A stretch of 64,000 nt of DNA from Pseudomonadota bacterium. GTDB taxonomy: Bacteria > Desulfobacterota > Desulfobulbia > Desulfobulbales > Desulfurivibrionaceae. Location of the stretch: contig JAHJRQ010000012.1 in assembly GCA_018830485.1 (NCBI GenBank), forward strand, positions 186,001 through 250,000. The letters run 5' to 3'. The notes below the pieces were generated by a model, which saw only the letters and a list, made by a program, of their open reading frames with translations, was not told where the DNA came from and did not search any database. Made by a program: the position numbers and the translations under genes. Below, piece after piece: positions 4,719 through 7,432 of this stretch (position 1 is the first letter of the stretch; each line of letters opens with the position of its first letter).

Positions 4719-4794
4719 GTTCCCATAAGACACTGTGGGGCAATCAGGTTTTGCCTTCACCCGCACCATGGACCACCATACCGGAGACATCCCC

Positions 4795-5298
4795 ATGCAG
4801 GAATCCCCCTATCTGGAGGGCCGCTACTTTTTGGTGGACAAGCTGCACCGGCTTCCCTTCCTCGGCTCGCTGAGCGAAAAATACATCAAGCATATTCTGC
4901 GCCTCAGCAAGATCCGGACCTTTGAAGACGGCGAAATCATCACCCCGGAAGGGGCTTACGACAACTGGGTCTACATCCTTTTTTCCGGGGCGGTGCGGGT
5001 GGAAAAACACGGCAAGGAGATCGCCAGGATAGAAGAGATCGGCGGCGCCTTCGGCGAGCTTGCCGCCATCGACGGCAAGGCCCGCTCCGCCTCGGTGCAG
5101 GCCATCGGCCCCACGGTCTGCCTGGCCATCGACGCCTCCTTCATGAGCGAGGCTGCCGAGCCCTTGGAGCAGGCGCTTTTTGTCTCCGTCATGTACCGCC
5201 TGTTCACCGAAGTCATTGCCCAGCGGTTGCGCGCTTCAAACGAGGAGCTGGTCAGGGTGCGTTCGGAGCTTGACCGGCTGAAAAAAAGCCAGCGATAA
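4795..5298 (+). CDS. Cyclic nucleotide-binding domain protein
   Basis: The 167-residue protein has one CNBD/CRP-like effector domain at about residues 15-125, with the jelly-roll pattern FEDGEIITPEGAYDNWVYILFSG and the turn GGAFGELAAIDGKARSASV, matching the phosphate-binding cassette (GELA...RSAS). After it comes a helical tail (EVIAQRLRASNEELVRVRSELDRL) likely to form a coiled coil. There is no DNA-binding domain, so it is not a CRP-type transcription factor; it probably acts as a signalling or dimerisation module. The ATG at 4795 has GGAG nine bases upstream; an alternative ATG at 4768 is in frame. Partners are unknown. Confidence 0.85.
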   Translation: MQESPYLEGRYFLVDKLHRLPFLGSLSEKYIKHILRLSKIRTFEDGEIITPEGAYDNWVYILFSGAVRVEKHGKEIARIEEIGGAFGELAAIDGKARSASVQAIGPTVCLAIDASFMSEAAEPLEQALFVSVMYRLFTEVIAQRLRASNEELVRVRSELDRLKKSQR

Positions 5299-5422
5299 CT
5301 CCCCGGCCCTGGGTTGCGGCATATTTCCGCTCAAGCCACAAGGGGCTTTTGCTTCACTTCAAGATTTGGTAGTATGCCGCTTCATTCGTCACCTCCGAAA
5401 CTCAACCTGTAGGACACCTGGT

Positions 5423-6448
5423 ATGGATTCAACAAAACCCTTGGCCGGCGGCGTCCCCATGGTCAACATCGACGGCGCCAGAATCCGGCGGCTCCGGGAA
5501 GAAAAAGGGTTAACCCAGCTCTATGTCGCCACGGTGGTCGGGGTCACCACCGATACGATTTCCCGCTGGGAAAACCGCCGCTACCCCAACATCAAAAAAG
5601 AAAACGCCCTCAAACTGGCAGAGGCCCTGGAAACCCAGGTGGCTGACATTGTTGACCACGGTCAGCCCGCATCTCCAACAGAACCTTCATCCCCCCAAAA
5701 TTCCGAACCGCCAAAGCAAGACGAGCCCTTGCCCCAGCCCCCCGAACCCGAGCCCTCTCCAGCCCTTGCCCCGGCAGCGCCGCAAGCCGCATCGTTCAAA
5801 GCCCGCTTCGCCTCTTTCCCCGTCCCTGTCCGGCTCGCAGGTTTTTTCCTGCTTGCCCTTGCGATTCTCGCCTTCTTGCGCTGGTACGGGCCAAGCGAAG
5901 GCGAGAGCCAGGTGGCGGCCTACAGAATCGTGCCGGAACACGCAACCCCGGGCATTCCCTTTCCGGTTGTCATTGAGGTGACAACCAGCGCCACCAGGCC
6001 GTTTTCCCTGATCCTCAAGGAAACCCTGCCCCCGGCCTGCATCCCGGCCCAGGGCAAACCGCGGTTTGTCTCCCAGGCAAGCGACCCACCGGTTCTCAAG
6101 TGGATTGACAAGATCAGCGGCGAGCAGGCGGTGTACAGCTATCTCGCCAAACTCCAGCCGGAAACCGAGATGGAAACCGGCCATCAATTCAGCGGCGGCG
6201 TCACGGTCCGCTCGGACGACAATCCCAGTATCCCTGTTTCCGGAACCGACTCCCTGCAGGCGAGCCCCTTCCATTGGGCGGACAGCAACAGCGATGGCCG
6301 GATAGACGACGAGGAGCTGCTTTCCGTGTATGAGATATACGGGGGGATTGAAGGGTTGCAGTTCGGCAAAAAGCTGATCGAGGAGATCTGGACCGCCAAA
6401 GGCTACAGATGGAACCAGGAGACGCGCGGCTATGATATTCTCCACTGA
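5423..6448 (+). CDS. Membrane-anchored XRE regulator with periplasmic beta domain and EF-hand
   Basis: The 341-residue protein starts with an XRE-type helix-turn-helix (about residues 16-75: ARIRRLREEKGLTQ, then VTTDTISRWENRR). A Pro/Glu-rich linker (82-122) leads to one membrane segment (about 138-154) and an extracytoplasmic part. Residues 166-270 look like a beta-sandwich, and residues 287-298 (DSNSDGRIDDEE) form a textbook 12-residue EF-hand loop able to bind calcium. The layout is that of a one-component transmembrane regulator, ToxR-like in plan but with an XRE head. The next gene, 22 bases downstream, encodes a secreted protein with a similar beta domain. DNA target and ligand are unknown. 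The ATG at 5423 is preceded by AGGAC. Confidence 0.75.
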   Translation: MDSTKPLAGGVPMVNIDGARIRRLREEKGLTQLYVATVVGVTTDTISRWENRRYPNIKKENALKLAEALETQVADIVDHGQPASPTEPSSPQNSEPPKQDEPLPQPPEPEPSPALAPAAPQAASFKARFASFPVPVRLAGFFLLALAILAFLRWYGPSEGESQVAAYRIVPEHATPGIPFPVVIEVTTSATRPFSLILKETLPPACIPAQGKPRFVSQASDPPVLKWIDKISGEQAVYSYLAKLQPETEMETGHQFSGGVTVRSDDNPSIPVSGTDSLQASPFHWADSNSDGRIDDEELLSVYEIYGGIEGLQFGKKLIEEIWTAKGYRWNQETRGYDILH

Positions 6449-6470
6449 TCACCCAACAGGAGGAACACAC

Positions 6471-6887
6471 ATGACGGCTAAAAAACACCATTCCCGCGCG
6501 CCTGGCTTGCTCTTCCTGGCATTGTTCCTGTTGTTGGCCATGCCGATGCCCCTGCGGGCGGGCGAGGCCCTGGTAAGCGGCCAATACCTGAGCAGCGGCG
6601 GGCAGGACCTTCAGTTACGGATCACCGTTGCCGGCCCAGCCCCCGGCACCCTGATCGTCATCCAGAACCTGCCACCCGGCATGGCGATCGAAGCTGCCTC
6701 GCCCGCCTTCCATCAGTACGATGCCAATAAGGGCGAGGTGAAATGGCTGCTGACCAAGGTCAGCCCGGGAAGCTACCTCCTGAGCCTGCGCCTGTCGCGT
6801 CCCGTGCCGGCTGGCTCGATCAGCGGGGAGATCCGCTACAAGGATCCGGCCAGCGGGCGGCTGACCCATCTGCCGATCAGGCCGTAA
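6471..6887 (+). CDS. Secreted protein related to the sensor domain of the upstream regulator
   Basis: The 138-residue product has a clear signal peptide (hydrophobic core about residues 11-27, likely cleavage after LRA at 30) and a small all-beta domain. Three stretches match the periplasmic part of the preceding XRE membrane protein: LIVIQNLPPG against LILKETLPPA, EVKWLLTKVS against VLKWIDKISG, and a closing SGEIRYKD against SGGVTVRSD. The order and spacing agree, so the two domains are probably homologous. It starts 22 bases after the regulator gene with AGGAGG ahead of the ATG, so the pair is likely one operon. No enzymatic motif is visible; a periplasmic binding or signalling role is inferred. 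Confidence 0.7.
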   Translation: MTAKKHHSRAPGLLFLALFLLLAMPMPLRAGEALVSGQYLSSGGQDLQLRITVAGPAPGTLIVIQNLPPGMAIEAASPAFHQYDANKGEVKWLLTKVSPGSYLLSLRLSRPVPAGSISGEIRYKDPASGRLTHLPIRP

Positions 6888-6952
6888 GTTGCCGGGCGCC
6901 TTGCACTACCCGAAAGGCGCCCCTGAAAACCCCAGCGAAAGGCATGGGAAAT

Positions 6953-7432
6953 ATGCCCCCTGATGATCTGCTGAATCGCCGGAAATTTCTCTCCGGCTCC
7001 GCGAGACTGCTGGTCATGCTCTCCTCCTTCCCCGCCCTGGCCTGCGCCTGCACCCGGGAAAAAGAAGAGGAACGCCGACTCACCGATCTTGTCATTGAAC
7101 AGGGCAAACTTGTTCTTGATCTGGGGGAAAACCGCTACCGGGCCCTCAAAACCATCGGCAGCGGCCTGAAGATAGAGATTACCCGGCAGGAAAAACCGCT
7201 CCTCGTCACCAGGATCTCGGAGACACGCGTCGCCGCCTTTTCCTCGCAATGCACCCACGCCGGCTACGAAATTTTGCTGCCCGAGCAGGGGATACTGGCC
7301 TGCGCCAGCGGGCACGGCGGCATCTTTGACCTGGAGGGCAGGGTGCTGGCCGGACCGGCCAAGAGCAATCTGCCGCACTACCCGGCCCAACTGATCGCCA
7401 ACCGGGTGTATGTCGCCTATCCCTTTGGCTGA
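6953..7432 (+). CDS. Tat-exported Rieske-like [2Fe-2S] lipoprotein
   Basis: The 159-residue product begins with a twin-arginine motif (NRRKFLSG, residues 8-15), a hydrophobic stretch and a lipobox-like LACAC with a cysteine at 31. The rest matches a Rieske fold: C100-T-H102 near the first cluster loop, then C117-A-S-G-H121 followed by GGIFDLEGRVLAGPA. The second loop has three residues between Cys and His where Rieske proteins normally have two, so cluster binding should be tested. The ATG at 6953 has AAAGG about ten bases upstream; ATG 6944 is possible but lies too close to it. It probably acts in periplasmic electron transfer, possibly with the two preceding genes. Confidence 0.7.
   Translation: MPPDDLLNRRKFLSGSARLLVMLSSFPALACACTREKEEERRLTDLVIEQGKLVLDLGENRYRALKTIGSGLKIEITRQEKPLLVTRISETRVAAFSSQCTHAGYEILLPEQGILACASGHGGIFDLEGRVLAGPAKSNLPHYPAQLIANRVYVAYPFG

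Follow-up and report, generated by a model that had tools for sequence, protein, structure and literature searches.

A membrane-bound XRE regulator with a conserved EF-hand loop and a secreted partner appears to control periplasmic cytochrome genes in Desulfobulbales and other Desulfobacterota

We propose that gene A of the window (the whole stretch of 64,000 nucleotides analysed here, from a genome of 2.9 Mb) encodes a membrane regulator of periplasmic cytochrome and ExtJ genes that is stabilised by calcium and resembles co-component systems, and that the adjacent gene B encodes its periplasmic partner; we put the probability of this reading at roughly 0.7. The switch formed by A and B appears to control periplasmic cytochromes in Desulfobulbales and other Desulfobacterota. 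It is widespread but undescribed, in that no account of the A-B pair, or of a membrane regulator with XRE and EF-hand parts, was found in the openly readable literature, a search that covered few subscription papers. The computed basis of the proposal is the architecture of A, the conservation of its EF loop, the homology and linkage of A and B, one gene fusion, the divergent neighbours of A, and an operator motif with its position.

Genes A, B and C, all on the forward strand, were confirmed at the positions listed here together with the parts of A.

5347 to 5375, + strand: probable promoter of A, a TTGCTTC region plus a TAGTAT block kept within the genus (upstream alignment)
5423 to 6448, + strand: gene A, putative membrane-bound XRE transcription regulator, 341 aa (sequence, Pfam, AlphaFold2)
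5483 to 5644, + strand: cytoplasmic XRE/HTH_3 DNA-binding domain of A, residues 21-74 (PF01381)
5822 to 5887, + strand: single transmembrane helix of A, residues 134-155, after a disordered Pro-rich linker (AlphaFold2 helix)
5912 to 6262, + strand: periplasmic Ig-like beta domain of A, residues 164-280 (AlphaFold2, Foldseek)
6281 to 6316, + strand: putative EF-hand calcium loop of A, DSNSDGRIDDEE, residues 287-298 (conserved loop positions)
6471 to 6887, + strand: gene B, putative secreted partner with signal peptide and Ig-like domain, 138 aa (homology to the A sensor)
6944 to 7432, + strand: gene C, Tat-type Rieske-family protein, 162 aa, a local neighbour (PF00355)

The named relatives obtained by scanning with A were labelled Desulfobulbaceae, Desulfurivibrionaceae, Desulfopila or other deltaproteobacteria, the closest being Desulfobulbaceae bacterium UBA2273 (98% identical). 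A consensus promoter scan found no promoter at the candidate upstream of A. At 4735-5298, directly upstream of A, lies a gene for a protein with a cyclic-nucleotide-binding domain (cluster 19/26), in which no DNA-binding domain was found; some members of the family share this arrangement.

Residues 21-74 of A matched PF01381 with 47.3 bits against a cut-off of 23 (E 2.1e-12). In the AlphaFold2 model, which was built from 46 sequences and has a mean pLDDT of 85, the Pro-rich linker (residues 86-129) is disordered with low pLDDT, the beta domain mostly exceeds a pLDDT of 90, and two more helices follow the EF loop. The helix at residues 134-155 is the sole apparent transmembrane segment, and the HTH_3 domain and a membrane-spanning helix are thus joined in one chain, as in transmembrane regulators. 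Among 46 aligned homologues, R168, P181, W227, Y240, G258, G274 and H284-D287 of the sensor are invariant, as are D296, E298, W323 and Y328. No cysteine of the sensor is conserved in this alignment, so that direct thiol redox sensing by A is unlikely, and we rejected it.

The EF loop could be extracted from 120 homologues, all of which conform to D-x-[ND]-x-[DN]-x-x-[IVL]-x-D-x-E. Positions 1, 3, 5, 10 and 12 are D, N/D, D/N, D and E, respectively, in 120/120, and every one of these 12-residue loops therefore has the EF-hand ligands at positions 1, 3, 5 and 12, although the extraction demanded W[APV]D ahead of the loop and thereby partly predetermined position 1. The single-sequence loop of A matched the Pfam EF-hand models weakly and below cut-off (PF13202, 14.9 bits vs 25.9). 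The EF-hand of A most likely binds one calcium ion, and this ion may have a structural role instead of being the signal. The first-pass annotation had described A as a one-component transmembrane regulator composed of an XRE helix-turn-helix, one membrane segment, a beta domain and a calcium-type loop, and the HTH_3 match, the AlphaFold2 model and the conservation of the loop bear this out.

The product of gene B has a hydrophobic N-terminus that resembles a signal peptide. Pairwise BLAST between A and B gave a weak match (E 0.001). A profile search with B recovered the sensor domains of A from many species (best E 5e-14), and profile-to-profile alignment by HHalign joined 84 columns with an E of 4e-9 and a probability of 96. 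The model of B is confident (pLDDT 89), and the beta domains of both proteins have the same best match among solved structures, the Ig-like adhesin domain 9ifr; that of A additionally matches cohesins and CARDB in Foldseek. Sequence searches of solved chains yielded no convincing relative (none with E <0.7). B is thus homologous to the beta domain of A, and it probably arose as a copy of that sensor. The initial suggestion that the next gene encodes a secreted relative of this beta domain stood up to structure prediction and profile comparison, both domains being Ig-like rather than unrelated folds.

A and B are a conserved unit. Of 104 distinct loci whose sequence extends far enough downstream, 83 have B directly after A, the gaps being mostly -4 to +50 bp and the two genes overlapping by 4 bp in ten loci. 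The sensor domain of A is present in 128 of the 194 genomes of the order, and B, after removal of four matches that are A itself, in 99; B tracks A across the order, as 98 of these 99 genomes also have A and a single one has B without A (Fisher p 1e-26). The linkage between the regulator and the secreted gene, on which the earlier proposal depended, is therefore borne out by the neighbourhood survey. In one genome only (G135, a single contig), A and B are fused into one open frame of 572 aa (L050:9007-10722) in the order HTH-TM-sensor-EF-insert-B, which is suggestive of a periplasmic heterodimer of A and B. The insert of the fused frame is an extra segment of about 120 aa between the EF-hand part and B.

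Alternatively, A might act on its own as a one-component regulator, with B co-transcribed as a target in the periplasm or as a decoy, such as a cytochrome scaffold. B is not adjacent to A in 20 of the 104 loci and is missing from 30 of the 128 genomes with A. In a sample of the phylum, the sensor of A was found in 25 of 297 genomes, with one match each, and among the 20 loci read in detail (L228-L247) B lies downstream in nine; the distant members L236-L246 keep A without B. These cases favour an independent A, but the homology of B to the sensor of A, its near-total restriction to genomes with A and the one fusion argue against it, and we regard a stand-alone A as possible but rather doubtful.

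Gene C matched PF00355 with 33.5 bits (cut-off 20.3) and carries a Tat-type RRxFL motif, seen by eye, in keeping with its first description as a Tat-exported Rieske-like protein. Its second cluster box, conserved among the homologues listed, reads C-x-S-G-H (C-x3-H). The canonical second box of Rieske proteins is C-x2-H, one residue shorter, and this form is not found in gene C. A, B and C had also been suggested to be a trio that could act as a periplasmic redox or calcium sensing system. The Rieske gene does adjoin A-B in the window and in some congeners, but no A locus outside the window's family has it, a large histidine-kinase-like gene frequently intervenes between it and B, most A-B loci lack it, and the sensor of A has no conserved cysteine. 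Since the Rieske gene is only a local neighbour, the trio is not the unit; we rejected gene C as a part of it on the basis of the neighbourhood survey, and consider redox sensing by the trio very unlikely.

The genes on the other side of A give a different connection to electron transfer. A class III cytochrome gene and/or an ExtJ-like gene lies upstream of A on the opposite strand in 62 of the 96 loci with enough flank. The cytochromes belong to class III (PF02085) and have 3-4 haems; of three small divergent proteins tested against the ExtJ model NF040942, one scored above the cut-off and the others below. A third divergent family, c11, occurs in ten loci, and the cytochrome together with c11 was found again at eight distant loci of the phylum (L228-L235). 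Thus, the redox link drawn in the first-pass annotation holds by way of class III cytochromes and ExtJ-like proteins, and fails by way of the Rieske protein. ExtJ is present in 158 of the 194 genomes, and it is common in genomes that lack A, so that we rejected the idea of ExtJ as an A-dependent protein.

Many of these divergent proteins end in GC, nearly always as EGC (30 of 37 ExtJ, 10 of 10 c11 and 7 of 38 cytochromes). Two B proteins of one genus (L072, L247) bear the same tail, as would be expected if B were a target of A. The tail is thus common to unrelated secreted proteins, namely ExtJ-like proteins, c11, class III cytochromes and some B (loci L024, L026, L036, L087, L041, L070, L072, L186 and others); a 453-aa protein in L194 also carries it, and EGC is often preceded by a basic stretch. 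The bare pattern is noisy, with 60 matches vs 27 in the control over 15 genomes by our own tally; only in-frame ends of secreted proteins count. The genome of the window also has a stand-alone ExtJ of 80 aa (G000:C13:141903-142130, L174), which ends in IEGC and adjoins a thioredoxin-like gene. A common attachment or processing signal is a possible role of the tail. It is attractive, albeit improbable in our judgement, to speculate further that the A-B pair senses a phylum-wide, undescribed electron-transfer module of the periplasm whose members would be class III cytochromes, ExtJ-like proteins, c11 and, in some lineages, B itself; the EGC tail would then mark covalent attachment or processing, and calcium-clamped A would read the module via B.

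We found a candidate operator, the inverted repeat GATGTC-N4/5-GACATC, about 100-145 bp upstream of the divergent cytochrome and ExtJ genes. When inverted repeats were counted in the 250 bp upstream of 106 A genes, ATGTC-N5-GACAT appeared in 21 loci. The regions upstream of A, 26.4 kb in total, contain 23 sites within two mismatches of CGATGTCNNNNNGACATCG, against 29 over the full 1,069 kb of the same loci; the chance expectation for the upstream part is 0.08. Arrays, with two or more half-sites inside 40 bp, were present in 43 of 104 A upstreams vs 12 of 394 control upstreams (p 1e-22), although such p-values overstate the evidence, given that these very regions supplied the motif and that loci of related genomes do not count as independent. 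With the start codons of the divergent genes picked by a signal-peptide heuristic, the centre of the operator lies at a median of 134 bp (IQR 109-143) from the start of the cytochrome and 110 bp (IQR 98-115) from that of ExtJ, and its position is more scattered when measured from A than from the divergent gene. No array was found upstream of roughly 60% of the A genes, that of the window among them. The sites with 0-1 mismatch in 22 genomes did not support a large regulon: where coordinates were compared, the strong sites were those upstream of A, and the rest seemed mostly dispersed.

The window's genus has neither a cytochrome nor ExtJ beside A and no operator upstream of A, except at a second, divergent A-B locus in one genome (G014:C123), where the same composite site lies between A and a divergent EGC-tailed gene. 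The operator motif had come from an exploratory search, before the cytochrome genes of this genus were looked at. A half-site scan of EGC-tail loci in the window's own genome (G000) and a congener (G008) then detected an N4-spaced array upstream of a tetrahaem cytochrome. As the genus pattern was read off these cytochrome regions, the following check is one of recurrence and of agreement with the motif upstream of A, rather than a blind prediction: 13 of 17 genomes of the genus carry the pattern, at roughly one copy each, with control matches near zero. In about 12 of the 17, the gene downstream of the site encodes a tetrahaem class III cytochrome with AIEGC or AVEGC at its C-terminus, and the distance to the start codon is usually 120-145 bp. 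The best site in G000, ATGTCGCCAGACATCAC (C5:107731-107747, 0 mismatches), is on another contig than the window and likewise precedes an EGC-tailed tetrahaem cytochrome. In our reading of the alignment, the array of the genus cytochrome promoter sits directly upstream of a poor -35 region, a placement that fits activation.

The same data bear on whether another regulator binds the operator, A merely sharing an intergenic region with the targets. That the A genes of the window's genus, save the one at the second G014 locus, have no array upstream is in line with this possibility. Nevertheless, in the neighbourhoods surveyed, A is the only constant DNA-binding gene at these loci, which span many families, and the genus site recurs at the same kind of target away from A; we therefore hold another regulator to be unlikely. 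We infer that A is the protein that binds the operator, that it activates rather than represses, and that B contacts A. The operator and its position give indirect support to the regulation of transcription by A from the membrane. In the mechanism that we favour, the XRE domain of A would bind arrays of GATGTC-N4/5-GACATC half-sites upstream of small periplasmic class III cytochrome and ExtJ-type genes, the target being divergently beside A in most relatives and elsewhere in the genome in the window's genus. The periplasmic part of A would consist of the Ig-like domain clamped to the C-terminal EF-hand, and B, the secreted Ig-like duplicate, would gate or stabilise this sensor, as ToxS does for ToxR. 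The Ig/EF module of A and B would together set the state of the XRE domain on the arrays. With the operator and the targets named, experiments can address directly how periplasmic cytochromes are controlled in Desulfobulbales.

Several known systems resemble A in part. Transmembrane transcription regulators, as presented in the main text of PMC10269533, combine a DNA-binding domain, a single membrane pass and an extracytoplasmic sensor as A does; XRE, EF-hand and Desulfo- cases are absent from that text. RodZ likewise has an N-terminal helix-turn-helix, a transmembrane helix and a periplasmic beta part, and A might be conceived as a RodZ-like morphogenesis protein instead of a transcription regulator, its disordered linker adding to the similarity of layout. 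Nevertheless, Pfam assigns A to HTH_3 and not to HTH_25 (no match to PF13413 in A), the genome has a separate HTH_25 protein (a 401-aa frame, E 2e-24), and an operator is linked to A. We rejected the identity of A with RodZ on the first two grounds, and find a role in morphogenesis hardly credible. The beta domain of A matches the fold of the cohesin/CARDB-type Ig-like domains and, like dockerin-like tails with a single EF-hand, is followed by one EF-hand; it differs in that it has no sequence relation to solved chains (E <0.7) and sits in a transcription regulator.

In Geobacter, the extHIJKL cluster that includes ExtJ lies opposite the gene for a LysR-type regulator, and Fur regulation has been reported for ExtH and ExtKL (PMC5877670, PMC6148476). 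The small divergent family beside A matches ExtJ (NF040942), and here it is an ExtJ paralogue that lies opposite A. The uncharacterised ExtJ family is thereby tied to a regulator, and the shared C-terminal cysteine tail is brought to light.

The closest parallels in organisation are VtrA/VtrC and ToxR/ToxS (PMC9214523), in which, as in A-B, a membrane-tethered helix-turn-helix factor is encoded next to, and often overlapping with, the gene for a periplasmic partner. A shares the adjacency and the occasional 4-bp overlap with such co-component systems. However, the helix-turn-helix is CadC-like in those systems and of the XRE type (HTH_3/HTH_31 in Pfam) in A, and the partner is a lipocalin-like barrel there and an Ig-like duplicate of the sensor here, no lipocalin being among the top 50 structures matched by the model of B. 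Thus, A-B falls outside the VtrA/VtrC-ToxR/ToxS superfamily. The targets also differ, being virulence genes in the known systems and likely cytochrome and ExtJ genes in A-B, which has in addition the EF-hand. ToxR/ToxS-like signalling, known mainly from enteric pathogens, would thereby extend to sulfur-cycling, electron-transferring bacteria with unrelated parts, the partner having probably been made by copying the sensor.
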